This document shows positions 8,995 through 51,989 of a DNA stretch of 64,000 nucleotides, in pieces. The notes beneath the pieces are model-generated. The model was not told where the DNA came from, ran no database searches, and saw only the letters and a program-made list of their open reading frames with translations. The stretch's first letter is position 1. Each line of letters opens with the position of its first letter. The DNA comes from a virus, in the IMG/VR virus record IMGVR_UViG_3300021130_000224, positions 44,422 to 108,421 of that record. One strand, 5' to 3'. The position numbers and the translations under genes were made by a program.

Positions 8995-9056
8995 CCAAAT
9001 CTGATAGTATTTATCTTTTGTAAACGTAAAACTAATCAGGAACATTAATTAACTTT

Positions 9057-9089
9057 ACGGAGCTAATCAGACAGGTTAGCTCCGTTTTA
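9057..9089 (+). terminator. Rho-independent terminator after the 1250-aa gene
   Basis: A perfect 10-bp stem ACGGAGCTAA (9057-9066) and TTAGCTCCGT (9076-9085), with loop TCAGACAGG, is followed by TTTT. It lies between two co-directional virion genes, so it either ends the upstream transcript or attenuates it. The 60 bases before it (8995-9056) are AT-rich and hold no gene. The spacer to the next ATG is only about 14 bases, so any new promoter for the 899-aa gene would have to overlap this hairpin. Confidence 0.8.
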
Positions 9090-9102
9090 AAATATAAAAA
9101 AG

Positions 9103-14800: not shown

Positions 14801-17800
14801 ATTTACATATGAATTTCAGAAAGGTAACTCTGATGCAATAAAAGATGGCATTATAACTTTTGATAAGGATAAAAATGTTTTAGCCTTCCGTTACAGAAGC
14901 AATGATGGCAAGGTAAGAGATCATGTTATTGATTTACAAAGAGCACTTGAAGAAGACAGACTAAAGTTTAAAGACAGTAAAAAAGAAATAAGTAAAGAAG
15001 AATATGATAGAATTAAAAACTATCGTGATCCTAACTATACAATGAAAGCTGCTCGTCAAATAGAAATAATTGATGAAGCTACTAAAGAGTACAGAACAGA
15101 ACTGGAAGAAGTTAAAGGTAGAATAAAAGAACGTGAAGATTTGCTTGGTCAACTTCAGGATACCATTGCTGGTATTCAGGAGAAAATGAAAAAACAAGGT
15201 ACTACTAAAAAATCTTTAACTCAGTACACAAAAGAACTTGTGTACATGCAGGAATTACATGATTCTTTACATGATGACCTTGAGCCATTGCTTGCAAGAA
15301 GGGAAGAACTGCAATCTCATTCTGACATAGTAGAAGGTTTAAAAAGTAATATACTTAACCATCCTAACGGTGTTGAGTTTATTGAATACTTGAAAAAATC
15401 TCAAGAGAACATAAAAGCTGAGAAAGAGAAAAACGATACTGCAATTGAGCATCTGAAAGGTCTTATTTCAAAAGCAAAAGATTTTATTGTCACTCTGAAA
15501 GATTCATTACTCAAGAGAATAGCAAAGTTTGAAGCAAGGTATCCGAGTGAAACACCAGGACGTATAGGAGAAATGTCTCAAAGTGAAGCTAATACTTTGT
15601 TGACAATACTAAGAGCTAATGAGTATGATTTCCCTAAAAAACAAGGTATTACCTATGACGATAGTTCTCTTTGGAAAGAAGAACAAATAGGTACTCAGAA
15701 TCCATCAAGGTTGACAGAGCAAACAAGAGCACTTAAAGAGTTCTTAGAAACAAACAGAGACTTCTTTAAAGATCGAGATGAAATACTAAAGGATACTAAT
15801 ATACTTGATGTTAAAGAAAATGAAATAGAAGCTAATGAAAAAGCTATTGCTGAATTATTAGCTGATAATAAGGAACTTGAAAAAGTCTTTAATATTCTCG
15901 ACAAGATAACTAAACAGTTTGAAGAAGAGTATAAGAGATGGAAAGAAGATGTTGTACTTACTCAAGCATACCGGGAATCACCAAGTGCACAAAGGGTTCT
16001 TAGAGAAATGCAAGCAGCAATGAATGCAAACTCTTTACCTATTGTCCCTACATCTTTACTTGATAAAGCTGTAAGGGCCGTGTTAAGAAAAATACCGTTT
16101 TTTAAAATGAAGGGTTTACAACGAAATCCTTTTGCTGATAGTATTATAGTTGATAGTACAAATAAAAATACTTCTTTTTATCAGCAACACAATAACTGGC
16201 CTGATAGAGAAAGAGATTTTACAGCTAATCTTACTAAATGGTCATTTAAGTTAAATGGCAGTAAGTTTGGTTTAGGTAGTGCTATAGAGCCTGATAATGT
16301 AAAGGTAATGGTAGTTAATACCGGCAACCAATCTGCTTTTGGTTTTGAAGGTTTTGTACCTGAGAGTTATCAGAGTTATGATAAATCAGAAACTATTTTC
16401 AACAAAGGAGAAAATAGAGATAACTCAAGAGCACAGGTAGCACTTGTTTATACATATCAAGATGAATCAGGTAGGACATTTACTATAGATAAAGATGGTA
16501 ATCTTTTATCTGAAATAAAACCGGGTGCAGAACAACATGATTTTGACAACATGGTGTTTACCTACCTTGATCACTCAAACCTTAAAAGAACAGGTGCATA
16601 TAGAGCAGGAGAGAGTAAATTTTATGATGCTGAAAGTTTTAGTCAAGATGAACTAAATGCTATTCAAGCAAGTGCTACATCAATGCGTAAAAAGCTTCTT
16701 GATCTAAATGGTCAATTGTTGCTTGATTTTGATGTAATGGGAGGTTTTATTAATAAACCTAAAGAACTGGATGAGGAAATTTCTGATGGTACGGAAGGTG
16801 ATGAAGAACCAAAGAAGAAGCCGGTAATTAACAGAAGTGTTACAGAAGTAGGTTTAATGTCTGATTCAGATCTAAGTAAGCCAAATATTCTTGCTGTAGC
16901 AACTGACGTAGATCCTGAAAACAATAAAGTAGCCAGAGTAGATGGAGAACTTATACCTACTGCTTTACCATTTTTAAGATTGAAATCTGGTAAACCGGTA
17001 ATACTTACAACTAATAGGTTTACAAAAGAGCAGGCTGAGAACATTTATAATGTTCTGAAAAAGATTGCTAATTCAATGTTCAGAGCATATGGTAAATCAG
17101 AAGGTTCTGCTGAAGAAGGTGCAGTTGATAGATTGAGAAATGTTTCTACTGGTAAAGAAATAAGTGCTATGTGGAGATACCTTTCTACAATATCTTATTT
17201 CCGTAGACCAGAAGAAGGAGAGACTCTTGACAGAAATCAATTCTACCTTGATGGAAAAGGTAATATTGTAATGGGTAAAACGTCATGGAAATTTGATCCT
17301 AAGACACTTAATGATCCCGAAGTAAAAGAAAAGATAATTACAATTATTGCCGGCTCTGACAAAATACCAGGCCTATTCCATAATGTGGATAGTCTTTCTT
17401 TACGTGAAAGAGGTACTGAACCTTTTGAAGAATACATTGTTGATGATAATGGTAATGTAAAAGAGGTTAGAACCTGGGAAACTTTAAATCATTGGTATCT
17501 ATCAGATAAATATCCTGATGGTACGGCAAGAAATAAATCAGAGAATGATAATAACATTCCTGTGACTATCAATGCAAATGTACCTTCTTCTACCGGTGAT
17601 GTTGCCATAGAAGGTCGTTACATTAAGGTAAGAGGTATTGGTGAAGAATACAAGCCTAAGATAAAGGAAAAGAAAACAGAACAGACTCACCCGAGTGCTG
17701 CACCCAAGCCAAAGGCTCCTGAACCTCAATCTGCTCAAGGTAAAACTGAACCAATAGAAGAGTTTTCTTTTGAACTAAATGGTAATAAATATCCAATAAC

Positions 17801-20800
17801 AGATGGTAAAATTGAAATAGTTCAAGATTATACTACTTATACTATTATCCCTAAAATAGAAGGCAATAATATAAAAATTGAAAATGCTCAATGGTCAATT
17901 AAAGATCCTAAAACAGGAGAAGTTAAAACAGCAGAAGCTAAAACAGCTTTAAAAGACGTATTTGAACAAAAACTTAAAGAGCAATATGCTGATCATTTAG
18001 CTAAACAAGCTGAAGCAAATAAACCTGCAGAACCTGTAGTTACTACTGATGTACCTGTATCGGATATAGAAGCTAGAAGAGCTGAGATAGAAATAAAAAT
18101 ACAGGAAAAATTAAAACAACTTGATGAAAGTGATAAAAGGTCATTAGAGGCAATAATGCCTAATAATCCTAATCATCCTACATTTAAAGTAGGCATGAGA
18201 TATAATGATGGCATGAGAGTAATTATTCAAAATGCTAAACCTTCAGATAATTTTGATGGTAGAGAAGATAGTTATATTGCAATTACTAAAATAATTGAAC
18301 CTGCTGAATATAGAGCTGATGGTAAAATGACTAAAGCTGCTAAAATTGAAACTACAATATTCAATACTAAAGAAGAAGCTGATAAAGCTATTGCAGATAC
18401 CTATGCCAAAATTCAAGCACAGGTAAAAGAAGGTAAACGTCAAAAAGATGCAAATGCTAAATTTGATACAGAACTTGCTGCTTTAGATAAAGAAGGTACA
18501 AGTACTACAGAAGAACCTCAAGTAATACCTGCTGAACCTCAAATAGAAACTAAATCAGGTAAGCCTGAAACTACAAGTAATGTTGTAGAAAGTGTTAGAG
18601 AAAAAGCACAAAGACTAAAAGACCAACTTAATGGCAATCCTCCTAATACAAGGATTGTACAACCTGGAGAAGTAGCTGTTAGTGATCACAAAGGACACGA
18701 AGAATTTATTACTTGGTTGAAAGATAAATTACCGGGTGTTAAGTATAATGAACTGCACGATGTTGTAAGAATAACAGGTGCTAAATCTGCATGGGGTATA
18801 GCGAAAGATCACATTATTAGTGTATTTAAAGATGCACCACTTAGTGCAAAATATCACGAAGCATTTCACCCTGTATTTGATGTGTTTCTTACTGACAGAG
18901 AAAAAGCTAATGTGATCAGAGAGTTTAAGAATAGACAAGGTAAGTTCTTTGATTTAGGTTCAGGTAAGTATATAAACTTTGCAGATGCTACTGTATATCA
19001 AATTGCAGATAGACTTGCTGAAGAGTTTGGTATATATAAGACTACCGGTAAAATGCCGGAATATACCCCTAAACAGCAGAATTTCTTTAAAAGATTGTGG
19101 GCAGCATTAACGAACATCTTCCGTACACCAACAACTATAGATAGTATCTTTAAAAAAGTAGATGAAGGTGGTTTTAGAAATACAGAACCATTACGTGAAA
19201 TAGGTATTAATAACTACAGTACTGTACAAGGATTAAGAAATAGATTTACTGAGCAGGAAATATCTGCCAATGTAAAAGGTATAGCACTTGAGATATACAG
19301 AAATCTTAGATTAGATACTGGTAAAATGCTTAAAACTCTTGAAGGTAAAACTACATTCAAGGAGTTAATTGATCCCATAAAAGAACTATTTAACTGGAGA
19401 TTTCATCTTGAAGATTCTGAAGCTAAATTTATGGAGAACGGTGTATTTACAATACATGCACCTGATTCTCCATTTGGTGATGTACAGAAAGATAGTTTAA
19501 CTCAAAATTGGCAAAATGTTCTTGATAACTGGGATGATTACATGTCAGAAGTAAAGTCTTTCCTTAAAACAAAGGGTATTGATTTTGTCAAGAAAGAAAT
19601 ATCAGGTGACCTTGAGGAAGGTGAATCTATTAAGGAATCTGCAGGTGAAGAAAGTAATAATAGAGATTATGCAGGTGACATATTTCAATCAGATGCAAAG
19701 AATAATTCTCCAAAAGAAATAAAGCTGATATTTGGTTTTGTTACTGAGGATGATTACGATAATGACCTTATAGCAAAAAGTAATTTCCGCTTACAGGAAA
19801 ATCCAAAACCTAAAATGAATGCTATTTCAGGTATGGATCAAATGTCAACCGATACTGATTACTTCTATGTTGTAATGAAGGAAATGGCAAATGTATCCGG
19901 CCTTGATGAGATGAAAAATAAATTCTTATCTCTTGCACAAAAAATACCTTCATTAGTAAGGCCTTACAAAGCTATATTTGGTGAACCTACTGCAAATAAT
20001 CAACCTACGGCAGAAATGCTTAGACTGCAGCACTTATTTGAAAAAACATTTAATAAGCAGGTTGTTACACCTTTCATGCAGAAGATCTCAGGCAAAGAAA
20101 GTAGTGCTACTATAAATTCAGATAGTGAACGTGATACACGTCAGATAGTAAATGATTTCTTGTCAAACATGACAGGTCTTCATATGAATACCGATATAGT
20201 ATCTATGGATCAACATGGTAACTATACCTTTAATACCAAAGTATTAAAAGATCCTACTCATAAAGATTTTATTCCTAATCCAAGAAATGGTCAGTTCCCT
20301 GAACAGAAAGAACAAATGTCTCTTGAGTTTTTGAATAAGATAGGTTTTAATTTTCCTAAAGAAGTATTTAATAAACTAAGTAAACAAGATAAAGAAAAGC
20401 TTACTAAAGAATCAATGAGACTTTATGATGAGCTTTATAGAGTAACTGCAAAAGGTTCAGGTGCACTTATATCAAGGTCAGGTATAACTACACCAGCAGT
20501 AGATAAAATAGCAGACATTTATCTTAAAGCTGAACGTGGTTTTAGATCAACTCAAAGATTTACAATAGATGGAGAACCTGCTCAAAGGTATGTTCTGCAT
20601 AATAATTTATCCCAAAATTTATCTGAGATCAATCAAGTTGAATCAAGGGAAAAACTTCTACAGGTTAAACCTTATTATGGTACAGATCCTTTCTGCCAAG
20701 AATCACTTCTTTTGAAAGAGAATGGTATGTGGTTTGCTGAAACTGAAACCAAAGGTGATACAAGGTATACACCATGGAAAGATAACTCTAAAATGCAGGT

Positions 20801-23800
20801 TACTGTAACAGAAGGTATTGATTCAAATGGTAAAAAGGTTGCAAATAAAAAAATGAATGCAGTTACCAGGTTCATGCAAGCAATGAATATGAACCTTTCA
20901 GGTAATTTCTACTTTGTAACATCTGCAGATAGTTCACAAGATTGGGGGGCAAGAACAGGTGAGACTGGTAAGTTTTATATTCCACCTTCTGTCTACAACA
21001 ACACTAAATACGTTGGTGATATTTTTGCCGGCTATTTAAGAGCTGAGATAGAAACAATCAAGGATTTTAATGTAAATCCTGAAAAGCAAAAGTGGGAGCA
21101 GCTTAATAAAAAAGTAGGTGGTAGTAAAATAGGAGAGCAACTTCGTTTCTTCAAAGGTCTTCTTTCTAAAGATGCTGTAAAAAAGGTAGAAGAATATGCA
21201 AATGGCAAAGGTCCAGATGCAGAGTTAAGTACTTCTGAATTTGTTAAAAAGATTCAGTCTGATGTAAATGAAGGCTTGAATAAATACATAAGTCAGCAAG
21301 TTGAAGATGCTAAAAAGATGTTGCAAAAAGCATCTATAATAGAGAAAGGTACTCAAGGTTATAGATGGTATGGTTTAAGCGAGAGAGTAAGAGATTTACT
21401 TAGTGCTGACCTTGAAAATAAGCTTGGTAGAAAAGAAAGACCCACCGGTGATTACAAGAAGGATAGAGATCTTCGTATTGTTTATAATGAGAAAGAAATA
21501 AACGATATTATTAAGTTTAGAACACTTAATCATCTTGCTCATGGTATTGAGATGAACAAAGTATTCTTTGGAGATCCTGCTATGTATAAAGATCCTTTTA
21601 AAAGAATGAAGCTGTTTATGTCAGGTAAAGACTTTACTCATACCGATAAAGGTATAGGTGTAAGTAATCTTGTGTTAGCTGATAAGTACAATAAAGTAGG
21701 TGCTCATACTTTAAAGAAAGGACAAGTAGGTTATCATGATTTTACTGATACTCTGAAAATATTTACTTATGACTTTGGTGATAGCCCAAGTACTAAAATT
21801 GCATCTGCAAACTGGAAAGAATTACCTGAAGCATATCAAAGTAATAATTCTATTGATGGTCAGTCTCATATAATGTTACCTTTCTACCGTGAACACAAGT
21901 TAAAGGAGGGTACATGGCCGGATGATAGAGAAGCTCAGTATCAGTATGATCTTGCTTTATTTAGAAGAGAGGCAACCAAGAGGTTTAATGCAGGGGAGAA
22001 GAAATTTGAGAAGTTTGCTTACAAAAATAATGAAGATGACAAAGCCCTAAAAGCTGAGGATGATAAACTGCTTGCTCAAGGTAATCCTAAGGTAGCAAAT
22101 GCATTTTATATTGATAAGCCACTTGCTGTAGGTATGTACCAATCACAATCAAGAATGGTACCATATGCACTTAAAACATCAACTCTTCCACTTTCTTGGG
22201 AACTTGTAAGAGGTAAGGCACTTGAAGATAAATACTTGATGATGCTGGAATCAGGTACTGCTTATAGTGGTCCTAAATCTCAGCAAAAATTTGGTATACC
22301 AGAAGGTGCACCTGAATTGTATAGTAAAGTAACAGGAAAGCTTGCTCTTACTGGTGAAATAATAAAAGCAAAACAATTACCTGTTAGTTGGTCAGACTGG
22401 GGTAAAATATTAGAAACATCAGGTGAGAAAGAAAAGATTACTCTTGGTTCTCAGGGTACTAAACTTGATCATCTCCATTTGTTTACAAGAGGTATACCTA
22501 ATGACTTTATGACAAATCTTTCTTATAAAGAAAGAAATGATCAATGGTCTAAACTTTCTCCAAAGGCCAAAATTGAAAAGAGCGAGTTTTATAAACTTTA
22601 TGACAATAAGAATAAAGCGTTAAGTGCACTTGCTTCTCATGGTCTTGAAGTAATAAAGGATGAAATAGGTATAAGTAAAAATGATGCCGGTGAATATGAA
22701 TTGATGGATGCTTCTAAACTTGTACATTTTCTTAACCAGGAAATTACCAGAAGAGAGTTACCTCAGAATATGAAGGATGCTTTAGGTGTATATTTAAACC
22801 CTAAGTCTGGTAAAATTGAGTTGACAAATGCTCTTGAAACACTTGCTAATTTCAATCAGATACGTTCTATCATAAACTCTCTTATCGACAAACATATTAA
22901 CTCACCTAAAGTGAATGGTAAAGCATTAATACTTGCTTCATCTGCAATGTTTGAAGATGCTTCAAAAGGACTAAGAGTTGAAAAAATAAATGGTAAAGAT
23001 GTACTTGTATCAGATCATCTTGAATTTTACCGTATAGGTAAAGATGGTAAACCTACTAGGAGAATGCAAGTAATGATGACCAACTTTATGTATAATGAGT
23101 TAAAGAAGAAATCTAAGCTTTCTGATGCTGAATTGATGAAATATCTGATGACAGAAGAAGGTAAAGAACTTTTGTATGGTATAGGTTTCCGTATTCCTAC
23201 TCAAGGTCTAAACTCTATAGATTCATTTGAAATAGTACCTTTTGATTTAAGGTATGATAAAGATGGACAAATAGATTACGAGAACAGTAAAATGTTTGTT
23301 CCTAATACATATGGTGACATGATGGTTGTTCCTGCAGAACTTACTACAAAAGCAGGTTCCGACTTTGACGTGGATAAATTGTTTAGTTATCTGAAGAACT
23401 TCTATATTGATGGTAAGGGTTACCCAAGACTTGTAAAGTTCTTAGATGAAAATAACTCTACTCCAGAAGAAAGATATGTTCGTTACGTTAAAGATAGTGC
23501 TGATAAGAAAACAAAAATTGCTATTAGTGCAGAACGTACTGAAGAAGATGACTATGAAAAAGAACAGTTCTTTGGTAAGTTAAAAGATGAAGTAAAACAA
23601 GCAAGAGAACTTGGTGTAAAGGATATTAAAGCTAATATCAAAGAACAAATCAATGACATTAGAAAACAGGCAATAGAGCAATCAGATAGTGTATTTGCAG
23701 AGCTTAGAGAGGTAGGTAAAAAACTGTATAGCAATTTAAGTGAGGAAGTACTTACTGAGTTTAAAGCTCTTGCTGCAGAAAACAAAACTAATAGTGTAAA

Positions 23801-26800
23801 AGGCCCGGCAGAGATAACTTCTTATTTTACTCTATCTTCTGTTCTACTTGAAAGAAGTGACCTTGATGAGAATGATAGAAATAGTCTTTTAAACATGAAC
23901 CATCTCTATCAGAAAGAACTTGAGCAATTAGGTTACAATCAGGAATGGATAGATGAAAGAAAGAAAGAGGTTATTGAAAAATATAAAGCAAGCAAAGAGC
24001 TTATTAATGCTAAAATAGGTGAGATCAGACAAGGTGAAGTTTCAGCATTCTTTGAAGCATTAAATAAGCTAAACAAAGAAGGTGAGTTTGACTTACATAA
24101 AAAGATAGCAGAAGCATCAGGTATTATGTCTTTTGAAGAATTTAATACAAAAAATATCTTTGAACAGAATACCAAAGAAGCTATTGAGAATAAGTATCAG
24201 CAAAACATACATGATATTGTAAGCCATCCTTATAATTTTGATAAGCTTGTTGAGCCCAATAGTGCAGAAGAGCTTAAATCTTTTGAAGCTAAACTTGAAG
24301 AAACTCGTAATTCTAAAAAGTCACAGAAAGAAAAAGATCTACTTGCTGAGGAAAAAGCACGTAAGAAATCAGGTAACGTAGATTACCTGGATACTATTGA
24401 CCCTATCAAGGTGTCAGAACAAAGGCAGGTAATGCTTACTGCAAAAAATCAAATAGGTATTGCTGCTCAGGCAAATACAGGTAACTCACTTGCACATAGT
24501 GCACCAGAGCCAATTGTTATTGATTCAAATGTACCATTGTCTTCACAGGATCTTAAAGAAATACCTGTAGATGCAAATGGTAATAAAGATTATTCAATAA
24601 AGCTTGCACACAATAGTGTAGAAAAAGATGGTAGAAAATTACCTACTATATCTGGAGGAGAAGTTAATCTTGGTAAGATATCCGGATTGATTTCACAAAT
24701 AATAGATGGTTCAGTGGATGCTGCAAATGATCCTTATTTGATGAGAGTATTCCCATCAAAGGATGCTGTATCAACTGCTGTTATGTTGACAAGGCTTGGT
24801 TGTGATATAGGTGATATAGTAATGTTCTTGAACCAACCTATTCTTAAAGAATTGTATTCTAAACAAGAAGCACTTGCAGCAAGAAGATTATTTGATCCTA
24901 CTTATAGGAAATCAAATGATACAATGCTTCAGAATGTTAAAGCACAATTTGGCAAAGGTAAACCTGTGTTTGTAGATAAAGTATTGTCTTTTGATATGTT
25001 ATCTGATATGATTGCTGAGTATGAAGTAAATCCTACCTTGAGAGGTAAAGATGAGTATTCTGCATATCAACGACTGATACTTGATGAATACAAGAAGTAT
25101 AAGCTTTACTCAGACCATCTGTTCCAATTCCAAATGGGTACTACCTGGGACGGTTTGGATAATCCTTCTCCTGCTTCTGTTTATTTAAAAAACAGAATAT
25201 TGGAGCAAACTAAATGGGGTAATGTATTTGGTGACGGTAATCAAATACTTAAAGATAGCTTTGTAAAGACCAGAAAAGAGACTGTGGAAGAAGGTGCTAA
25301 AGCACTTGAAAAAGTATACAAAAATACTTTTCCTTACATAAAGTCTATATGGGATGCATTTAGTAAACGTACCATTCGCATAGGCAATGATGCTAAGAGA
25401 GCAGCAATGGATAAAGCCAATATTTCATTTATTGATTACCTTACTCAGATAACTACATTACCAGGTGGTAAAACAATGAATGCATATATTGGTGAATTGT
25501 TCTTTAAAGATGATGTGTTTGCACAAGAGTTTAATAAAGCAAAAAGAGAAAATGCTAAAAAGAAAGGAACTCCTGAGTACAACATGGCTTTGAACATGCT
25601 AAGGTTAGATAGACAGATCTTCTCAAGGGATAGCAGAACACTTTCATTGAGAGAGAAATCTAAAGATGCTTCTATACAAAATATTCTTACTGACAGTTTC
25701 AGAGAACTGAAGCAAAGTAACCCCGCACTTTATGAGAAAATAGTTTTATTTGGCCATCTGCAGTCAGGTGTTACTGATACTAAACTGTCTTTCAATAAAT
25801 TTATACCTCACGAAGATTATAGTAAAGCTTTGATAAGAGGTATTGAACAACTTGATGGAGGTGATAAAACTATTCTTGAACAGTTTACTAAAACTAACCA
25901 GTTTTATAAAAACAACTGGATAAATGATGAGATAGTACCTTCTGTAGGTAGTTATCTTGAAGGTGAATATAGAGCAGATAATGTTTCTAATTCAGTAATT
26001 GTACTTCAGAAAGGTAAGTATGGATCTGAAAATCCTGCTGTCAAGGTAATGAGTAGACTGAACCCTACAACCGGCAAGTACTATACAGAAGCTGAAGAAG
26101 CTGATCTTGAAGGAAAAGGTTTTAGATTTAAACAAACACCTAAGCTATTCCGTAGAATAGAAACAGACAATGAACCATATACAGTTACTGATTCTAAAGG
26201 TAATGAGTACTATGTATTCAAACAGATAAATGCTTTAGGTGATGGTAATAATGTTCAGGAATACTATACCACAAATGAACCGTCAAAAAGAGATCTTCAT
26301 TTTAAAATAACAGAAGACTCAGATGATACGGTAATAGATGCTGTTGATAAGAGATACTCTGGTGGCAAGGTAACTAATGAGGAAGAAGATATGGATGATA
26401 CATTTGAATCAACATCTACTGTTGCAACACCTATAAATAGAGAGTTGTCAAACATAAAATTTGAAGAACATCCATCTACAAACTATGCAGACAGAACAAA
26501 AATAAATGCTTCTTCTGATGCAACTATAGCACTTGCTACAGACTTTACTTCTGCTGGAGAAAAAGCTACTAAAAATTCAGTAGAACAGCAAGGTAAAAAA
26601 TACATACCAATTGATTTGAATAAAGGTTTAGACGTTACTCAAGAAAGAGTTAACAAATTAGTACAGATGCTTAATGAGTCTGCAGGGAAAGATTTATTTG
26701 CTAAAAAAGAAATATCTCTAAACATTGCAGGTAATGGTATATATACTATGAAAGGTAGATATACACAAGAGCAAGTAGATGATTTTACATATCAATTACT

Positions 26801-27560
26801 CAAAAAAGCTATTGAATCCCCTGATCTTAAAGTTAAAATATCAAGTATTAATACAGGTGGTCAAACAGGTTTAGATGAAGCTGGTGCAAAAGCCGGATTA
26901 AAATTAGGAATACCAACAAAAATACTTGCACCAAAAGGTTGGAAATTCAGAGATATAAATGGTAATGATATTTCTGATGAAAAAAGATTTAAGGATAGAT
27001 TTAAAATGAGTATACCTGTATCTACAGAACGTACTACAGTAAAACCAAATACAAAAGGTGAGTATAATATTTATGCAGGTACCGGAGAAAATGTAGTTTT
27101 ATCAAATATGACACCAAGAAAGTTTATTTATAATGGTGGAGAATTTAATTCAGTAGAACAAGCATTTCAGGAAGCTAAACTTCAGTTTACAAAAGGTACT
27201 GAAAAAGATATTGCCACTCATAAAAAAATCAGTGAAGCAAAATCAGCTTTTGAGGCTAAAAAATATGGCAGAGAATACAGTACATTAGATGCAAAAGCTT
27301 GGGATGAAAATAGTAGTAAATTTATGAAGATGTTTATTAAATCATCTTTTGAACAAAATCCACAAGCACTTAAAGAATTGCTTGCTACTGGTGATGCTAA
27401 ACTTACACATAATCAAGATGCTGGTAAATGGGGTACTGAATTTCCAAAAATCCTTATGGAAGTAAGAGATGAATTTAAAGGTAAAACAACTGCAGAACCA
27501 GCAGTAGATGCAAGAGCAAAAAATAATGAAGAAGGTAATAAACCAAATCCAGCATGTTAG
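11805..27560 (+). CDS. Giant virion RNA polymerase polyprotein (RNAP + zincin + SLOG-like + NADAR)
   Basis: This 5251-aa protein is the largest in the window. N-terminal hydrophobic Gly/Ala-rich segments lie at about 195-240 and 380-405, and Lys/Glu-rich coiled-coil-like regions at about 590-800 and 1050-1400. HEAFH (H2351, E2352, H2355) followed by a Glu pair at 2406-2407 is a zincin-type metallopeptidase signature, perhaps for self-processing. GSDFDVDKL places the DxDxD metal-binding Asp triad (D3853, D3855, D3857), the hallmark of the single-chain double-psi beta-barrel RNAP of crAss-like phages. That enzyme is known to be packaged and ejected to transcribe early genes. At the C-terminus, residues about 4890-5050 look like a YpsA/molybdenum-carrier-type SLOG domain with motifs in permuted order (RT 4897-4898, DAT 4905, NIAG 4973, GGQTG 5018, PKG 5043). 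About 5087-5225 is a NADAR domain (LSN 5099-5101, SVEQAFQEAK 5116-5125, WG 5209-5210, LMEVR 5217-5221). The 3' end overlaps the peptidase gene by 7 bases. Confidence 0.85.
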   Translation: MPGTDQFGFPTLPNMDNSQKDANQTLSENQNNVVNPAFVLPSLTRESKNLIPNKSSASGVFDDIMKTAETLTSKGPSLTELTTKTAQDVPKEYRTGKFPMYYGPETEDFYGKSQGTGEKLLYGVGRGISSGSRAFLQSTVGLVNDIASVSTGGSFTDNNLNKWFDTWQKADDLDMPLYQTKEERDRSGWDPRGWVTGNNVAHFIESLGFMAGMAGGAYVTAGAGEFAIGARVTGSIMAAYDEAIASFSELAAKQAILVGVEDGEVVAKALSQQLMNDVKAIQAEATSGAVKLDKVNKLLNASKADLDAKYAAKLLGAEKIKQTIYGGIGNLGIASSAGFEAKEQFKQNYIDSMRERGFELTPEELQKLEGVSTSVARWTATVTGALGAISFGHAFKGIVAKGEAETAVREEINNLVNKEILTSEEIAANKIAKTATGPHIEGKTEYVDPTQATKKADNFIGKVTQSARRVGKVAGQNIGKIYDPFGAITMAEFSMVSPAIENYFSKQYQTGDADVWADAIGPNLERVFGTKEGIGELISGGLASGFFQVGENIKTSGKRKSATEAAANGMNKTYMGTYLKDLTQSIKVGRAFDEEEKDAIMSGDKKKQYDSRMSKLFAYMLPRVKHGKLEYIKSDIRGYRELLATDEGRKQLRASGELPAEGDLVKQAEELNQHLNKIEAYAENADKTYKALRLNHGSDPRFKDEVFEKLLYASSMIDNASERIVNISKELDTNKDITPQIRTQLVELQKLMSRPLTAEESFELLKNLGESREEIINKLSGRKNISDLRNKIVSNIKGLSINETKQQELIGKMGDMLKLTNSKTGYLKDYQTMILNPEMAHDFSRNSLPGFHEEMPMGKGEGEEGGPEKLTKTIKVKHAGSPFILGSDGKKIFTPSDLEVGEEYIGGVRELYDEYKGEPTKMKNFPKFRLEGEVEKERQTSKGILKEKKILISVPVGENGDRRYMEIDPKVFEKYKLTKLKDLQKNEEAMFYVNHANDVFTYEFQKGNSDAIKDGIITFDKDKNVLAFRYRSNDGKVRDHVIDLQRALEEDRLKFKDSKKEISKEEYDRIKNYRDPNYTMKAARQIEIIDEATKEYRTELEEVKGRIKEREDLLGQLQDTIAGIQEKMKKQGTTKKSLTQYTKELVYMQELHDSLHDDLEPLLARREELQSHSDIVEGLKSNILNHPNGVEFIEYLKKSQENIKAEKEKNDTAIEHLKGLISKAKDFIVTLKDSLLKRIAKFEARYPSETPGRIGEMSQSEANTLLTILRANEYDFPKKQGITYDDSSLWKEEQIGTQNPSRLTEQTRALKEFLETNRDFFKDRDEILKDTNILDVKENEIEANEKAIAELLADNKELEKVFNILDKITKQFEEEYKRWKEDVVLTQAYRESPSAQRVLREMQAAMNANSLPIVPTSLLDKAVRAVLRKIPFFKMKGLQRNPFADSIIVDSTNKNTSFYQQHNNWPDRERDFTANLTKWSFKLNGSKFGLGSAIEPDNVKVMVVNTGNQSAFGFEGFVPESYQSYDKSETIFNKGENRDNSRAQVALVYTYQDESGRTFTIDKDGNLLSEIKPGAEQHDFDNMVFTYLDHSNLKRTGAYRAGESKFYDAESFSQDELNAIQASATSMRKKLLDLNGQLLLDFDVMGGFINKPKELDEEISDGTEGDEEPKKKPVINRSVTEVGLMSDSDLSKPNILAVATDVDPENNKVARVDGELIPTALPFLRLKSGKPVILTTNRFTKEQAENIYNVLKKIANSMFRAYGKSEGSAEEGAVDRLRNVSTGKEISAMWRYLSTISYFRRPEEGETLDRNQFYLDGKGNIVMGKTSWKFDPKTLNDPEVKEKIITIIAGSDKIPGLFHNVDSLSLRERGTEPFEEYIVDDNGNVKEVRTWETLNHWYLSDKYPDGTARNKSENDNNIPVTINANVPSSTGDVAIEGRYIKVRGIGEEYKPKIKEKKTEQTHPSAAPKPKAPEPQSAQGKTEPIEEFSFELNGNKYPITDGKIEIVQDYTTYTIIPKIEGNNIKIENAQWSIKDPKTGEVKTAEAKTALKDVFEQKLKEQYADHLAKQAEANKPAEPVVTTDVPVSDIEARRAEIEIKIQEKLKQLDESDKRSLEAIMPNNPNHPTFKVGMRYNDGMRVIIQNAKPSDNFDGREDSYIAITKIIEPAEYRADGKMTKAAKIETTIFNTKEEADKAIADTYAKIQAQVKEGKRQKDANAKFDTELAALDKEGTSTTEEPQVIPAEPQIETKSGKPETTSNVVESVREKAQRLKDQLNGNPPNTRIVQPGEVAVSDHKGHEEFITWLKDKLPGVKYNELHDVVRITGAKSAWGIAKDHIISVFKDAPLSAKYHEAFHPVFDVFLTDREKANVIREFKNRQGKFFDLGSGKYINFADATVYQIADRLAEEFGIYKTTGKMPEYTPKQQNFFKRLWAALTNIFRTPTTIDSIFKKVDEGGFRNTEPLREIGINNYSTVQGLRNRFTEQEISANVKGIALEIYRNLRLDTGKMLKTLEGKTTFKELIDPIKELFNWRFHLEDSEAKFMENGVFTIHAPDSPFGDVQKDSLTQNWQNVLDNWDDYMSEVKSFLKTKGIDFVKKEISGDLEEGESIKESAGEESNNRDYAGDIFQSDAKNNSPKEIKLIFGFVTEDDYDNDLIAKSNFRLQENPKPKMNAISGMDQMSTDTDYFYVVMKEMANVSGLDEMKNKFLSLAQKIPSLVRPYKAIFGEPTANNQPTAEMLRLQHLFEKTFNKQVVTPFMQKISGKESSATINSDSERDTRQIVNDFLSNMTGLHMNTDIVSMDQHGNYTFNTKVLKDPTHKDFIPNPRNGQFPEQKEQMSLEFLNKIGFNFPKEVFNKLSKQDKEKLTKESMRLYDELYRVTAKGSGALISRSGITTPAVDKIADIYLKAERGFRSTQRFTIDGEPAQRYVLHNNLSQNLSEINQVESREKLLQVKPYYGTDPFCQESLLLKENGMWFAETETKGDTRYTPWKDNSKMQVTVTEGIDSNGKKVANKKMNAVTRFMQAMNMNLSGNFYFVTSADSSQDWGARTGETGKFYIPPSVYNNTKYVGDIFAGYLRAEIETIKDFNVNPEKQKWEQLNKKVGGSKIGEQLRFFKGLLSKDAVKKVEEYANGKGPDAELSTSEFVKKIQSDVNEGLNKYISQQVEDAKKMLQKASIIEKGTQGYRWYGLSERVRDLLSADLENKLGRKERPTGDYKKDRDLRIVYNEKEINDIIKFRTLNHLAHGIEMNKVFFGDPAMYKDPFKRMKLFMSGKDFTHTDKGIGVSNLVLADKYNKVGAHTLKKGQVGYHDFTDTLKIFTYDFGDSPSTKIASANWKELPEAYQSNNSIDGQSHIMLPFYREHKLKEGTWPDDREAQYQYDLALFRREATKRFNAGEKKFEKFAYKNNEDDKALKAEDDKLLAQGNPKVANAFYIDKPLAVGMYQSQSRMVPYALKTSTLPLSWELVRGKALEDKYLMMLESGTAYSGPKSQQKFGIPEGAPELYSKVTGKLALTGEIIKAKQLPVSWSDWGKILETSGEKEKITLGSQGTKLDHLHLFTRGIPNDFMTNLSYKERNDQWSKLSPKAKIEKSEFYKLYDNKNKALSALASHGLEVIKDEIGISKNDAGEYELMDASKLVHFLNQEITRRELPQNMKDALGVYLNPKSGKIELTNALETLANFNQIRSIINSLIDKHINSPKVNGKALILASSAMFEDASKGLRVEKINGKDVLVSDHLEFYRIGKDGKPTRRMQVMMTNFMYNELKKKSKLSDAELMKYLMTEEGKELLYGIGFRIPTQGLNSIDSFEIVPFDLRYDKDGQIDYENSKMFVPNTYGDMMVVPAELTTKAGSDFDVDKLFSYLKNFYIDGKGYPRLVKFLDENNSTPEERYVRYVKDSADKKTKIAISAERTEEDDYEKEQFFGKLKDEVKQARELGVKDIKANIKEQINDIRKQAIEQSDSVFAELREVGKKLYSNLSEEVLTEFKALAAENKTNSVKGPAEITSYFTLSSVLLERSDLDENDRNSLLNMNHLYQKELEQLGYNQEWIDERKKEVIEKYKASKELINAKIGEIRQGEVSAFFEALNKLNKEGEFDLHKKIAEASGIMSFEEFNTKNIFEQNTKEAIENKYQQNIHDIVSHPYNFDKLVEPNSAEELKSFEAKLEETRNSKKSQKEKDLLAEEKARKKSGNVDYLDTIDPIKVSEQRQVMLTAKNQIGIAAQANTGNSLAHSAPEPIVIDSNVPLSSQDLKEIPVDANGNKDYSIKLAHNSVEKDGRKLPTISGGEVNLGKISGLISQIIDGSVDAANDPYLMRVFPSKDAVSTAVMLTRLGCDIGDIVMFLNQPILKELYSKQEALAARRLFDPTYRKSNDTMLQNVKAQFGKGKPVFVDKVLSFDMLSDMIAEYEVNPTLRGKDEYSAYQRLILDEYKKYKLYSDHLFQFQMGTTWDGLDNPSPASVYLKNRILEQTKWGNVFGDGNQILKDSFVKTRKETVEEGAKALEKVYKNTFPYIKSIWDAFSKRTIRIGNDAKRAAMDKANISFIDYLTQITTLPGGKTMNAYIGELFFKDDVFAQEFNKAKRENAKKKGTPEYNMALNMLRLDRQIFSRDSRTLSLREKSKDASIQNILTDSFRELKQSNPALYEKIVLFGHLQSGVTDTKLSFNKFIPHEDYSKALIRGIEQLDGGDKTILEQFTKTNQFYKNNWINDEIVPSVGSYLEGEYRADNVSNSVIVLQKGKYGSENPAVKVMSRLNPTTGKYYTEAEEADLEGKGFRFKQTPKLFRRIETDNEPYTVTDSKGNEYYVFKQINALGDGNNVQEYYTTNEPSKRDLHFKITEDSDDTVIDAVDKRYSGGKVTNEEEDMDDTFESTSTVATPINRELSNIKFEEHPSTNYADRTKINASSDATIALATDFTSAGEKATKNSVEQQGKKYIPIDLNKGLDVTQERVNKLVQMLNESAGKDLFAKKEISLNIAGNGIYTMKGRYTQEQVDDFTYQLLKKAIESPDLKVKISSINTGGQTGLDEAGAKAGLKLGIPTKILAPKGWKFRDINGNDISDEKRFKDRFKMSIPVSTERTTVKPNTKGEYNIYAGTGENVVLSNMTPRKFIYNGGEFNSVEQAFQEAKLQFTKGTEKDIATHKKISEAKSAFEAKKYGREYSTLDAKAWDENSSKFMKMFIKSSFEQNPQALKELLATGDAKLTHNQDAGKWGTEFPKILMEVRDEFKGKTTAEPAVDARAKNNEEGNKPNPAC

Positions 27561-29791: not shown

Positions 29792-32700
29792 ATGGCAATC
29801 TGGGGTACTGACTGTGGCCGGGTAAAACTTTCCGGTAAAATGATCAAATCTGTTTCTGCTAAAAACGGAAATGAATCAAAATTGTATAAAGATATATTAG
29901 AACAGCTTGATACTTTACCAAAAGAAGAAGTTGATCAGCTCAGAAAATCTTTTAAAGATTGGGAAGGGGATATTGTAGGAGATGTTGATAACAAGCGACA
30001 TCTGGCTTTAGCATTATATGCTAAAACAAATAGTCCAAATTTTAAAAATGAGTTCAAAGGACAATTTGATAACAACAATGAACCTGTGTCAAAAGATGCA
30101 TTAGATATTCTTTTAAAGAAAAATGAAGAACTACAAGAACAAAAAGTAGAATCAGAGGATATATATAAACAACTGCCTACAGAAAAGGAGGAAACAAAAC
30201 CATCAAAAGCATCTGAAGTAACAGTTGATGAGTTTAAAGAATTTTTGAAACGTGCAGGTATACCATTGAATGAAATGGTTAAAGGTAGGGTTGATGAAAA
30301 TGGTAATCCTATTACTCCTGAAAATGCTGCTTATATTTCGGAAAGACTTGTAAATGTTATTGATGGTGAACAAGCAACAGCATTACCAGAAGAGGCATCT
30401 CACCATGCTGTTCAGTATATAAAAATACATGACCCTAAGTTATTCAAAGCAATGATGAATAAGGTGGGTAATTATAATTTATATGGAGAGATTGCTGAAC
30501 AGTACAAAAATGATTCTGCTTATAAATTAGAAGATGGTAAACCAAATATTCCAAAAATCAAGGAAGAAACCTTAACAAGGTTATTTGTTGAGAATGTTAT
30601 TAAAATTAAAGAAGGTAGTACTGAAAAACCGGAACTTGTTGCACAAACTCAAACTTGGTGGAAACAAGTAATTGAATCATTACGTAGCTTCTTTAATACC
30701 GGTTCTTTTGATCCGTTCAGAAAAGCAGCAAAACAATTTGTTGAAAAAGAAGGTGCTTTTTCAGATGAGAATGTAAAAAACAAAGTTGATCAATTAAAAG
30801 ATTGGAAATCAAGTGAAAACTTTAAAGACTTTTCTACAAACACAATAGAAAACTTTAAGGGTGTTGTTGAACAAGTACCTGATCATACTGCTATTGTTAC
30901 TCATGGTACTGTAATATCATTACTTAAAACCTGGAAGGATAATAAATACCAGGATGGAGAAGTATCAATGGATGTTTTCCAAAAACAAGAAATTAACAAT
31001 GGTCACATTGAAGAGATAGATTATAACGGTAAAAAGATATTTCTTGTTCGTCATGGTGAATCAGAAGCAAATGTTGATGATGTAGAATCAACTGATAATA
31101 CCCCTCTTACCCAAAAAGGTAAAGAAGATGCAATGAAGGTTGCTCAAGAGCTTCGTGATAAAGGTATTGTCAAAATTGTATCTACTGAAACAGACAGGAC
31201 AAAAGGAACTGCAGAAATTATCAGAAAAGAATTAGGACTCTCTGACAAGTTTGCTCAGGTAGATAAACAGAAAGCTACTTTTGATGCTATTGTTGCAACT
31301 CTTAATAAGATCAAAAAAGAAGTTACTGCTGATGAGAACTACTACTTAAATGTAGAAAAGAATAAAAAGGTTCAGAATAGAATAACCGATAGAGCACAAC
31401 GTATAGTAGATGCTGCTTTTGGCGACAGAGAAATAAGTGAAGAACAGCGTAAAGAATGGGATCAAAAAGCTGCTACAGGTAGTGCAGGTCATGATGATAT
31501 TGCTAATATCTTCTCAAGGTATATTGATAAAACAACCGGTTTTGTAAGAAAGAAAAATGGTCAGTTTGCACCATTAGATATGGAGGGTTACGTTTCTAAA
31601 ATAAACCCAGATAACGATGATTATTATAGCATGCTTGAAAAGATGATGCGAGATGTCATTAGTGAATACCCTGAAAATACCAGGTTTATATGGGAAACAC
31701 CTATTTATAATGAACTTACTGATGAAGCAGGTACTCCTGACTTTCTTGCTATTCTTCCTGATGGTACTGTAGACAATCTTGACTGGAAGTTTCTTGATAT
31801 TAAGGATAATGTAAAGGATATAGCCAAATATAAAAAGAAAGCATTCAATGTTCAAATGAAAGGCTATGCCGAAATACTTCGTAATTCTTATGGTGTAGAA
31901 AAAATAGGTAGAAGCAGAATCATGCCTATACAAGCAAAGTACAAATTTGATGACATTACAGGTCAAAAAATATTTGCCGGCATAGAGATTGCCAATAGTG
32001 AAGACAACTATAAAGGGGAAAAAAGAGACTATCTTATTCCTCTCCCATCTGAAGTAGAAACAGTAAGAGAAAACTCAGAAATACAAGATCAAGTTGAGAA
32101 AATGAATAAACTTCTTGATCAGCTTTCTAAACAGAAAAAAGAAGAAATTAGCGAAGACAAAAAAAGAACTTATGAGCAAAGAATTGCAGAGGTTATGAAA
32201 GCAATTCGTTATGCTCAGGTAAAAAAAGATGCAACATCTGCAGTAGAATCTATTAGTGGTTACCTAAATGAAATAGGCCCTAAGTTTAAAGAATACATGA
32301 AGATATTTGAAGAAGGTAAGGAGTCTCAATATACACTTAGTGACTTAAATAGAATGGCAGATGAAGTGTACCGTTCTTATGAATATCTTGCTCCTTTTTA
32401 CAACCTTGAGCACGTATATAAAGATCCGGAAACAAAAGCAATGCTTTATGATCTATCTTACAGAATAAGTGAGGCAGGTAAATATATGGATAAACTAAGT
32501 GCTTTACTTATAGAAAAAGGTGTAGCAAATAGATTTAATCTTTTTGGTGTAGCAGGTACTGATCCTATGACAGGTAAACCATTTGCTGACCAATTAGTAA
32601 GTTGGGGTAAAAAGCTTTGGACTACAAGTGCTAATGCAAAAACAAGAGCCGGTCAATTATTTCATCATGTAAGAGATTTGGTTTATCAAAAATCAACTTT

Positions 32701-35299
32701 TAAAAATATGGAAGTGCAAGATGGATACGATAAAATTGCACAACCTGTTTTAGAATGGGTAAAGAAAAGGTCCAGAAAAGAACTTGACAAATTACTATTA
32801 AAGCAAGGTAAAGATCAATGGGGGCTTCATGATAAATACTCAAAAGAGTTTGATACTAAACTTCAGAAAGCCCAGAAAGATGGAGACCTTAATTGGATAG
32901 TTGACAACATAAAGTTAAAAGACTACATGATTGATTATGAAGAAAGGTTTAATAAATACATGAAATGGGCTACTGAGTATTTTTCTAACTATACTGATAA
33001 TACCAGTAGAAATGAACAACTTCTTGAAGAAGCTAAAACAGACTTTCAAAAGAAGTATGATATCAAAGCTTATCCTAAAACTGCTATTGCTATATCCAAT
33101 GATAGATTAAAGCGATTTCCTACAGATACTTGGTTTTCAAATGAGTACAAGGAACTAAATAAATCTGAAAATGCACCTCTTCTTGAAATGTATAATTACA
33201 TGCAAAAAAGGTTTAAAGAAGCTCATGATATAGGTATATTGGATCATAACTATATGCATTTTATACCAATGGCACCAAATTCATTTGTTGAAACTGTAAC
33301 ATGGGGAGATAATAAATTTAAGAATATTATTAGAAACATAGGCTCATCTGTTACATTGCGACCATTTGATGCCGGTTATACTAATCCTATTACAAAAGAA
33401 CCTGAAGACAAGCTGCTTGCAAGATATGTATCTGATTTGTCATCAAGAGATGCTGAAGGCAAAAAAGACTATTCTAATTTATCAAGAGATGTACTTTCCT
33501 TAATGCCATTATTTAACCTTGAGATGGTAAAGTATGAGTATGCTAAAGACATAGAAGGCATCGTTAAACTTCTGCTCAAGGTAGAAAAGAATAAACCTGT
33601 TCTACGTACTAACTCTTGGGGAGAACCTGTAGTAAAAGAAGGAAGAGTGCAAATGATGGATAGTCCTGAAAATTATGAGCACCTAAGAAAAATGATAGAC
33701 TCTCATTTTTATGGAAAATCAGGTTCAGATGATCAGAAAGGATGGGGCTTTAAGTTTGATTATAACGGTATGGCTAATAAAGTAAATAAATTTATGGGTT
33801 CTGATGTAATGCCTTTATCTGAAGATGAAAAGGTATTTGTTTCTTTTCCAAAACTTATTGAAACAGTAAATAGAAATCTTACAATTAAAGCACTGGGCGT
33901 TAATCCATTTAGTGCATTATCTAACTATTTTGGTGGTAATTTCCAGGCATGGATAAATACAGGAGAAGTAGAAAGAGATGATTTTGATTTTGCAAAAGTT
34001 CTAATTGGAAAAAATAACTTTTTAGCTACTGAAGAAACTAAAGTCATAGGTGGTCTCATGCAGTATTTTTCCCCTTTTACTGCTGAAGAAACAAATGAAA
34101 ATGCAAGAAAATATAGCCTTAATGATTGGAATAAATGGTTATCTACTCATACATTAATGACCATGATGAGAGGCAGTGATCATTCGGTTGAAATGGTGAC
34201 ATCTTTGGCACTTATGAAAAACCTTATGGTTGTAGATGGTAAGTTAGTTAATATATGGTCTCATTTAAAAGAGAAATATAACTACTCATCTATTTACAGC
34301 ATGGAGTCACCACAAGCAAGAAAAGCTATTATTGATAAAATGAAAGCAGAGTATAAAGATCTAAAAGAAAAAAATTCCATTGTAAAAACTTCTAAAATAG
34401 TAGATGGTAAAATAGAAATACCCGGTCTTATCAAAAACGATACATCTATATTCACTGCAAGAGCCAAAATGCAGAAAATGGTAATGGATGCATTAGGTAA
34501 TAGAACTCCTTATCAGAAAATGCAAATTGATCAAAACATTTTTGGTGCATCACTTATGGTATTTCATCACTGGATACCACCATTAGTAAACACCAGGTTT
34601 GATAATTTACAATATGTTGCAAGTGCTCAAACTTACAAGTGGGGGAGATGGAAAATGTTAGGTGCAGCATTGCATGAAAAAGGCATAGGTGCATTTGGTC
34701 ATCTTATTTCACATCTTAGTAATAGTGATGAAGATATTATCGCAACTGCAAAAGCTTTGTATCAAAAGAAAAGGCAAGAATTTTTACAAACCGGTGAAAT
34801 AAGCAATTTTGATAAAAACATGACAGAAGCTGATTTTATAGACATGTATAAGAAAAACATGGAAGCCAATTTTATTGATGCATTGTCTACACTTTCTCTT
34901 ATATCAGCATATTATGCAGCAACTGCAATGGCACCTGATAAAGATAAAAAAGGAAGAGGTTGGTACAAAGCATCTTTAAAAATGTTAGACAAGTTTTCAG
35001 ATGAGCTTGCATTCTTCTATTCACCTGCTTCGTTTTATAGACTTGTAGGTAATGCAAAGTTACCAATAGTAAATACTGCTCTTAATACTTATAAGTTTTT
35101 AAAAGCTGCAGGTAAAGAACTTTATTATGATGCAAAAGGTGATAAAGAAGCTGCTGAGAAAAATAAAGTTTTAAACCGTGTAATAAACGAAGTACCTCTT
35201 ATAAATCAAGTAGTTAACTTTTGGACAATGTTTGATGACGATCTGTCAGTAGAAATAAAAGGTAAAGTTACTCCTGATGATCCTAACAAACCATTATAA
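29792..35299 (+). CDS. 1835-aa virion polyprotein with permuted histidine phosphatase and PD-(D/E)XK nuclease
   Basis: Residues about 205-215 carry LPEEASHHAV, a motif of unknown role. Residues 340-372 read like the C-terminal half of a histidine phosphatase (ENFKDF 342-347, VTHG with H371). After about 45 residues comes the N-terminal half: FLVRHGESEAN (R420, H421, G422, E423), a LTxxG turn and STETDRTKGTAEII (R469, T470). The normal order is the reverse. Residues about 590-710 look like a RecB/Cas4-type PD-(D/E)XK nuclease: GTPDFLAIL (D650), LDWKF (D664, K666) and QMKGYAEIL (Q688, Y692). The remaining 1100 residues are mainly helical and unassigned; several hydrophobic segments near the C-terminus (for example LSLISAYYAATAM) suggest membrane contact. 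Position downstream of the RNAP polyprotein fits a virion/ejected protein. I infer delivery into the host together with the polymerase. Confidence 0.75.
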   Translation: MAIWGTDCGRVKLSGKMIKSVSAKNGNESKLYKDILEQLDTLPKEEVDQLRKSFKDWEGDIVGDVDNKRHLALALYAKTNSPNFKNEFKGQFDNNNEPVSKDALDILLKKNEELQEQKVESEDIYKQLPTEKEETKPSKASEVTVDEFKEFLKRAGIPLNEMVKGRVDENGNPITPENAAYISERLVNVIDGEQATALPEEASHHAVQYIKIHDPKLFKAMMNKVGNYNLYGEIAEQYKNDSAYKLEDGKPNIPKIKEETLTRLFVENVIKIKEGSTEKPELVAQTQTWWKQVIESLRSFFNTGSFDPFRKAAKQFVEKEGAFSDENVKNKVDQLKDWKSSENFKDFSTNTIENFKGVVEQVPDHTAIVTHGTVISLLKTWKDNKYQDGEVSMDVFQKQEINNGHIEEIDYNGKKIFLVRHGESEANVDDVESTDNTPLTQKGKEDAMKVAQELRDKGIVKIVSTETDRTKGTAEIIRKELGLSDKFAQVDKQKATFDAIVATLNKIKKEVTADENYYLNVEKNKKVQNRITDRAQRIVDAAFGDREISEEQRKEWDQKAATGSAGHDDIANIFSRYIDKTTGFVRKKNGQFAPLDMEGYVSKINPDNDDYYSMLEKMMRDVISEYPENTRFIWETPIYNELTDEAGTPDFLAILPDGTVDNLDWKFLDIKDNVKDIAKYKKKAFNVQMKGYAEILRNSYGVEKIGRSRIMPIQAKYKFDDITGQKIFAGIEIANSEDNYKGEKRDYLIPLPSEVETVRENSEIQDQVEKMNKLLDQLSKQKKEEISEDKKRTYEQRIAEVMKAIRYAQVKKDATSAVESISGYLNEIGPKFKEYMKIFEEGKESQYTLSDLNRMADEVYRSYEYLAPFYNLEHVYKDPETKAMLYDLSYRISEAGKYMDKLSALLIEKGVANRFNLFGVAGTDPMTGKPFADQLVSWGKKLWTTSANAKTRAGQLFHHVRDLVYQKSTFKNMEVQDGYDKIAQPVLEWVKKRSRKELDKLLLKQGKDQWGLHDKYSKEFDTKLQKAQKDGDLNWIVDNIKLKDYMIDYEERFNKYMKWATEYFSNYTDNTSRNEQLLEEAKTDFQKKYDIKAYPKTAIAISNDRLKRFPTDTWFSNEYKELNKSENAPLLEMYNYMQKRFKEAHDIGILDHNYMHFIPMAPNSFVETVTWGDNKFKNIIRNIGSSVTLRPFDAGYTNPITKEPEDKLLARYVSDLSSRDAEGKKDYSNLSRDVLSLMPLFNLEMVKYEYAKDIEGIVKLLLKVEKNKPVLRTNSWGEPVVKEGRVQMMDSPENYEHLRKMIDSHFYGKSGSDDQKGWGFKFDYNGMANKVNKFMGSDVMPLSEDEKVFVSFPKLIETVNRNLTIKALGVNPFSALSNYFGGNFQAWINTGEVERDDFDFAKVLIGKNNFLATEETKVIGGLMQYFSPFTAEETNENARKYSLNDWNKWLSTHTLMTMMRGSDHSVEMVTSLALMKNLMVVDGKLVNIWSHLKEKYNYSSIYSMESPQARKAIIDKMKAEYKDLKEKNSIVKTSKIVDGKIEIPGLIKNDTSIFTARAKMQKMVMDALGNRTPYQKMQIDQNIFGASLMVFHHWIPPLVNTRFDNLQYVASAQTYKWGRWKMLGAALHEKGIGAFGHLISHLSNSDEDIIATAKALYQKKRQEFLQTGEISNFDKNMTEADFIDMYKKNMEANFIDALSTLSLISAYYAATAMAPDKDKKGRGWYKASLKMLDKFSDELAFFYSPASFYRLVGNAKLPIVNTALNTYKFLKAAGKELYYDAKGDKEAAEKNKVLNRVINEVPLINQVVNFWTMFDDDLSVEIKGKVTPDDPNKPL

Positions 35300-50946: not shown

Positions 50947-51989
50947 TTATACTGTTTCTGCTATACCATATTCCTGTGTAAAGAATTGGTGGTTATCAAT
51001 TTGCTGCTGTAACCAAAATGTAGGATTTGCACTCTTAAGCGAGAAAGTTGTATAATTATACAACTCCCACAAACTATCAGGATGACCATAATTAAAAGTA
51101 GGAGTTTTTAACTCATTCTTAATTATATTCAACTGTGTACTGGTAATGATACCTTCTTCAATATACATCCTTCCCAATAGCTCTGCAGTAGTCTTCTTGC
51201 TTACTTCTATCTCCATCATCCTCTTCTTCTCTATAACCATCTTCTCAAAAGTCTCTCCTGCATTGCAGATATACTCAGTAAGGATTTTAGGTGTTACAAC
51301 CTGTATATCTCCCTGATGTTTGCTTTTAAATGCACCAATATCCCCTTTCACCATTCCATTTTCGCAACTTTAGTTTCCTTATGTTCGTTATTCATAAGGC
51401 ATTGTGGTTTACACAATAGCTTAATATTTCTATTAAGATCGGACTATATCACGATCCATTTCTGGATCCCCTGCATTTCCACTTCACTTGAAGCGTACTC
51501 TACTCCTTTCCAACATATTTCAGTTGTAGTTTCGATAGTCTCTGAACCTTCCTTGTTATTGTACAAGGCTTGGATGCTGATTGCCATATCTCTCGATTTA
51601 GGTTTCCAGCAATTAACAGGGTTATTCAATATACATTACTGTATAAGGTCACTTGCAAATCAAATGAAAACGTGGCCCCCAATTGCAAACTTCATACTCA
51701 ATGTCTTATTATAGCTATTCTGCCATGCTATCATTATTGACATATCTGGATCATTGCCGTAATCAAGATGGTATTTACCATTAGCTTTCATACCACCTGC
51801 ATTTTGGGTATAATGCTCACTTCTTAATAAGAATCCACACTTATCTATGCTCTCTAATGTCAAGTCCATTAGTTGACTATGTGAGATTGGTTTATAGTAG
51901 CTCGTTATTGCAGGTACTGGTACTGCTTTTAAAAACTCCTTAGTTGATTGTACATCAGCTATTGCATTTATTGCTATATTGTTTTCCAT
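50947..51989 (-). CDS. DUF932-like protein, split by a group I intron (exons 51664-51989 and 50947-51367)
   Basis: Exon 1 ends ...FAIGGHVFI and exon 2 resumes ...CENGMVKGDIGAFKSKHQGDI. Joining after 51664 and resuming at 51367 restores the frame and gives a 248-aa protein (747 coding bases, divisible by 3). VFICENGMV followed by KHQGD is the conserved centre of DUF932 proteins, which are common in phages and plasmids. Their role is not well known. No catalytic residues can be named. It is upstream of UDG in transcription order and followed by a strong terminator. Without splicing only a 109-aa fragment would be made. Confidence 0.75.
51368..51663 (-). ncRNA. ORF-less group I intron in the DUF932-like gene
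   Basis: The 296-nt element starts TTGATTTGCAAGTGACC and ends ACTAAAG. The last exon bases UCAU plus intron UUG pair perfectly with CAAGUGA, giving a 7-bp P1 with the obligatory U.G pair at the splice site. The intron ends in G. Inside, GCAATCAGCATCCAAGC is a P4/Q-like element, GGTTCAGAGACTA (51536-51547 region) is the P7 5' strand/R element, and GATATAGTCCGATC (51437-51450) is the P7 3' strand/S element. Splicing restores the frame exactly. No homing endonuclease ORF is present. The core closely matches the polB intron. Confidence 0.88.

Follow-up and report, generated by a model that had tools for sequence, protein, structure and literature searches.

The stretch of viral DNA analyzed here (the window; 64,000 nucleotides, bases 44422–108421 of a 108-kb IMG/VR virus record) encodes an 1835-aa protein that is homologous to cr108_1 gp052 and, through cr108_1 gp052, to crAss001 gp49 (Table 1). 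Both sequence homology and gene position, following the RNA polymerase gene within the cargo block, place it among the gp49-type cargo proteins, and the corresponding genes of crAss001, cr108_1, and the window phage lie in the same gene block. Products of the neighboring genes match crassvirus-type structural proteins. The 5251-aa reading frame upstream fuses a gp47-like part (HEAFH at residue 2351) with a gp50-like RNA polymerase part (DFDVD at residue 3853), whereas gp47 and gp50 are separate proteins in crAss001. A group I intron (Rfam RF00028, 81 bits) is located on the minus strand at 51420–51673.

The window protein is collinear with crAss001 gp49 and cr108_1 gp052 in the part containing the EExxH motif and in the C-terminal part, and with cr108_1 gp052 also in a PD-(D/E)XK-like segment. 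This segment has no Pfam match in the window protein itself; in the homologue L146, it matches PF12705 just above that family's cut-off. The EExxH motif is present in nearly all gp49-type cargo proteins seen; it resembles the zincin HExxH motif without its first histidine and has no Pfam match. In contrast to the cargo proteins of crAss001, cr108_1, and most other homologues, the window protein contains a histidine phosphatase module. crAss001 gp49 is one of three RNA polymerase–associated cargo proteins detected in virions by mass spectrometry (PMC10172136), and by analogy the window protein is probably carried in the particle; no virion proteomics are available for the window phage. The first-pass annotation had described the product as a virion polyprotein, a label that did not hold: proteolytic processing has not been shown, and a large gp49-type crassvirus cargo protein is the better description.

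Table 1. Coordinates of the features discussed in the text
Feature	Position in window	Strand	Basis
C-terminal part of muzzle-type tail protein (context)	127-2784	+	match to L051 muzzle protein, E 2e-123
5251-aa gp47-like and gp50-like (RNA polymerase, DFDVD) polyprotein (upstream context)	11805-27560	+	BLAST to crAss001 gp47, gp50, cr108_1
1835-aa gp49-type crassvirus cargo protein, host of the phosphatase module	29792-35299	+	homology to cr108_1 gp052, L141, L142
EExxH motif (EEASH, residues 200-204) of conserved domain preceding the module	30389-30403	+	kept in gp49-type homologues
Histidine phosphatase module, very probably circularly permuted, residues 319-488	30746-31255	+	gap in homologues, profiles, AlphaFold model
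C-type half (family C-terminal part), residues 332-411	30785-31024	+	PF00300 profile 113-158, E 0.011 when searched alone
H371, second catalytic His (VTHG)	30902-30904	+	sequence; invariant in seven permuted copies
Turn N412-G413 linking old C- and N-terminal strands	31025-31030	+	model strands 406-411 and 414-420
N-type half (family N-terminal part), residues 416-483	31037-31240	+	PF00300 profile 1-69, E 1.7e-16
R420 and H421 (RHG; predicted phosphate ligand and nucleophile)	31049-31054	+	sequence; invariant in seven copies
R469 (predicted phosphate ligand)	31196-31198	+	sequence; invariant in seven copies
PD-(D/E)XK-like segment, residues 635-731	31694-31984	+	common to cr108_1 gp052

Two Phosphatase Halves in Reversed Order

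Histidine phosphatases form a very large and well-studied superfamily. In the branch 1 family (PF00300), the RHG half is N-terminal and the half with the second catalytic histidine is C-terminal. The active-site residues of this branch (RHG, second arginine, and second histidine) are all present in the window domain. The family order is met neither by the window domain nor by six relatives described below, and because its halves are reversed the domain was filed as a circularly permuted variant rather than as an ordinary PF00300 member. From sequence alone, the first-pass annotation had placed ENFKDF at residues 342–347, VTHG with H371, RHGESEAN with R420 and H421, and STETDRT with R469, with the second-histidine half preceding the RHG half and no second RHG or VTHG nearby. 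All positions held, the 1835 residues contain no further RHG or xTHG-type motif, and the reversed order was borne out by PF00300 and a swapped-order profile. The extent given there, 30800–31220, was corrected from the gap in the homologues (Table 1).

PF00300 detects the RHG half with high significance and the upstream piece, searched alone, far more weakly (Table 1). A construct with the halves swapped scored 68.1 bits, compared to 55.6 bits for the RHG half. Half-domain and joined-order profiles were built from 61 canonical members found by contig scans. The C-then-N profile produced a single alignment with the window reading frame (88.9 bits, E = 3e-27); the normal N-then-C profile aligned in two pieces, in reversed order. 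When 224 stop-to-stop frames of the window were ranked with the C-half profile of the canonical members, this reading frame came first (E = 0.006). Once their halves are swapped, known members can be aligned to the window domain through the GES-helix glutamate, VxH, and the asparagine before the last strand, as well as through RHGE, N, PLTxxG, R, and T. The old termini meet in the sequence INNGHIEEIDY-NG-KKIFLVRHG. Matches to PPR proteins obtained with phmmer were dismissed as repeat-driven noise within one helix.

Comparison with branch 1 enzymes of known structure (PhoE, 1h2e; CobC, 6e4b/6nru; Alr0221, 3f2i) shows shared RHG, second-arginine, and second-histidine motifs, a common GES helix, and a common NxS/NG strand, with both window halves matching by profile and by partial structural alignment. 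Unlike these proteins, the window domain has its halves reversed and its old termini joined, is embedded in a giant phage cargo protein, and lacks a recognizable acid loop. The x[FW]DxG segment, which is located upstream in most permuted relatives, is missing from the window copy, and its acid/base therefore cannot be identified. KATFD, following the R469 helix, was considered as an acid loop and rejected, as homologue alignment assigns this region to the host protein.

Predicted Structure of the Module

AlphaFold2 predicted one compact domain for the window module (pLDDT 81.6, pTM 0.77, most core blocks above 90) and for the module of the relative L053 (pLDDT 94.6, pTM 0.90). The elements follow one another as helix, strand (VTH), helix, hairpin strand, turn, strand (RHG), helix, strand, and helix. 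With VIA-align, residues 96–184 of the window model superimposed on residues 0 to about 90 of phosphoglycerate mutase–type chains at 1.9–2.4 Å over 78–85 residues, with Z scores of 4.4–5.0 in most of the best rows. For the L053 model, the 17 best rows were all histidine phosphatases (Z up to 6.2), and the first half of the model mapped to chain residues of about 65–230. The aligner keeps sequence order and cannot show both halves at once, and Z scores of 5–6 are modest in themselves; support for the fold rests on the top rows belonging to one family and on the halves mapping to complementary parts, not on Z values alone.

A Foldseek search of the PDB with the window model gave no significant match, only macrodomains and GTPases at TM scores of about 0.35. 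Against BFVD, the L053 model had one match below 0.001, a histidine phosphatase family protein of Yasminevirus. A first fold alignment based on C-half fragments was discarded, since MAFFT had placed VTH on RHG. It is likely, as predicted by the models, that both halves pack as one usual phosphatase fold; the halves were aligned separately, and the clustering of catalytic residues is inferred.

Permuted Relatives in Viral Contigs

Profile scans identified six more permuted copies in viral contigs: L054 (also L018 and L038), L052 (L021 and L040), L051 (L042), L053 (L043), L141, and L142. The successful scan used an alignment that included swapped canonical members, followed by successor alignments; scans of viral contigs with the single window domain or the whole protein gave no match, because these search patterns were too specific. 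In all six relatives, the later part of PF00300 (about 65–169) precedes positions 1–70, with both parts above the curated cut-off. A crassvirus muzzle family gene accompanies five of the six; the sixth, L052, is a fragment contig without a muzzle match. L052 (IMGVR_UViG_2651869516_000092) reads TGA as tryptophan, and its in-frame TGA falls at a tryptophan position that all six other permuted copies keep without change. The four catalytic residues (R, H, R, and H) are invariant across the seven copies, which are otherwise 24%–58% identical; by our own count, 14 columns are invariant (E, T, H, W, R, H, G, N, L, G, A, R, T, and I).

Of the RHG frames in the fetched loci, 110 were examined; in 72, a recognizable second-histidine motif was located only downstream, which is the canonical order. 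The motif was found upstream of RHG in viral frames only; the remaining frames lacked a recognizable motif both before and after RHG or, like L052, were interrupted by a TGA codon. No classifiable cellular copy in the loci fetched from the scans was reversed, and those doubtful cellular frames that were inspected proved to be canonical or, in L064, to consist of an RHG half ending at a stop codon. Since the scan of cellular genome contigs kept the best 80 of 157 relatives, the permuted form cannot be taken as absent from cells. In the annotated phage and plasmid collections, only matches to the RHG half were obtained, and the eight loci inspected were all canonical. Two loci, L060 (JAHDHX010000001.1) and L061 (JAGQMP010000036.1), from Gracilibacteria and Patescibacteria MAGs, contain around 9000–9600 a canonical-order phosphatase domain inside an apparent valyl-type aminoacyl-tRNA synthetase, identified by eye from the sequence only.

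In a tree of de-permuted sequences, four other permuted copies group at 98/88, and the window copy joins them only at 72/34. By tree path, the nearest rows to the window copy are canonical-order phage phosphatases (L019, L039, L041, L025, and L028). The permuted copies have THN/THS and x[FW]DxG signatures in common with these phosphatases, in which RHG comes first and which are located in other phage proteins.

Insertion Sites of the Module

Scanning with the window, L141, and L142 proteins returned 39 loci, some of them near-identical, 34 of which have the EExxH motif. A histidine phosphatase is absent from 32 of these 34; the other two, the L141 and L142 contigs, contain a permuted one. When the window protein was aligned with 12 homologues, residues 319–488 remained unmatched except for a loosely placed linker of ~20 residues. 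The inserted block of ~170 residues comprises exactly one C-type half and one N-type half, and nothing else.

L141 and L142 are full-length homologues that can be aligned to the window protein across about 1370 residues (24%–27%); their module precedes the EExxH domain, whereas that of the window protein follows it. In L053, the module separates a gp47-like HExxH segment from an RNA polymerase DFDGD segment within a protein of 4038 aa, and the L051 module is a stand-alone 313-aa gene near the muzzle gene. Proteins at a similar place in other phages, phi17:2 gp36 and csAssE-Sib WOZ57323, have no phosphatase domain. Because the sites differ among the window protein, L141/L142, L053, and L051, we regard the permuted phosphatase as a likely mobile accessory module of crassvirus cargo genes, inserted at several places, a reading taken from domain positions. 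As a separate observation, the 4038-aa L053 protein (L053:5932-18048) has at its end a domain of the circularly permuted YpsA SLOG family (PF12694), and so holds two permuted enzyme-like domains.

Discussion

The data are best explained by a single branch 1 histidine phosphatase domain, very likely circularly permuted, at residues 319–488. Its old ends are, with similar confidence, joined by the two-residue turn, and the chain is newly opened between the R(T/A)xxT helix and the part with the GES helix. The first-pass annotation had offered a circular permutation with a short linker at the old ends, or two half-domains left from a tandem pair; the former is supported by the presence of one half of each type, the tight turn, six contigs with the same order, and the compact AlphaFold domain. 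For the overall explanation, a permuted phosphatase domain forming a mobile module in crassvirus cargo, we estimate a probability of about 0.8; that it is a working enzyme is inferred, without an assay, and is less certain.

Two alternatives remain possible. The permuted fold could be a pseudo-enzyme whose role in the cargo protein is binding or structural spacing. Consistent with this, the segment with the acid/base of canonical members is missing from the window copy, and presence of the module is sporadic; against it, the active-site residues are invariant in copies that otherwise diverge widely. Alternatively, the window copy may have been permuted independently of the other six. Its joint support with them is weak, the nearest rows by tree path are canonical phage copies, the acid-loop segment is missing, and the site in the protein is different. 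The cut region, however, is the same in the window and other copies, the permuted set separates from the canonical phage set at 87/76 when L141 and L142 are added, and a one-clade tree is not rejected (p-AU 0.27). One origin of the permuted copies is likely, but not shown.

The two leftover halves of a lost tandem pair of normal domains, not forming one fold, are a very unlikely explanation. In its favor, permutations usually arise when a domain is duplicated and the outer halves are then lost, and no other copy diverges as far as that of the window, which lacks the acid-loop segment. In contrast, the order is the same and no catalytic residue is lost in seven copies found at several genomic sites, the predicted domain is compact, and the insertion is clean, containing nothing else. 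A misassembly that reversed the order is all but excluded: the contig is metagenomic and there are no reads to check, but the 1835-aa frame is uninterrupted and the same order recurs in six other contigs, stand-alone and fused genes included.

The permuted phosphatase is thus very likely a genuine enzyme variant, apparently not described before, and not an error of reading. That it would be new had been proposed at first pass, and no permuted member was found in the papers searched, the classifiable cellular copies, or the annotated phage collection. In the literature searched, which excluded most subscription journals, no paper joined circular permutation with histidine phosphatases, and none joined crAss-like phages with histidine phosphatase or phosphoglycerate mutase.

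Conservation of the catalytic residues in otherwise divergent copies suggests selection for activity, and on this inference, in the absence of activity data, we lean toward a catalytically active phosphatase. By homology to crAss001, the gp49-type host protein would be packaged and ejected with the RNA polymerase, which would deliver the phosphatase before phage gene expression. The two halves are predicted to pack into the usual fold; H421 would then accept the phosphate in a pocket that also contains R420, R469, and H371, and water would release it, as judged from the conserved residues. The substrate we would favor, with no substrate data and less than even confidence, is either a host metabolite that carries a phosphate or a phosphohistidine protein, at an early stage of infection. 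NPr and Ndk are substrates of SixA, a small phosphohistidine phosphatase from this superfamily (PMC7948535, PMC12934123); SixA is cellular and of canonical order, and a substrate shared with the window domain is only a guess. A role in early host takeover or counter-defense is likewise inferred without activity data, and we consider it tentative. A bolder inference, which remains more doubtful than not, is that an active permuted phosphatase was repeatedly moved among packaged crassvirus cargo proteins and, ejected with the RNA polymerase, alters a host phosphate signal or disarms a defense at the start of infection.

More generally, automatic annotation can detect only half of such a permuted domain. 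That the domain occupies sites of several different kinds, in cargo or tail-region genes of crassviruses, and keeps its catalytic residues suggests an injected enzyme. Crassviruses are a very abundant order of gut phages, and the module offers a testable handle on the role of their unexplained giant cargo proteins.
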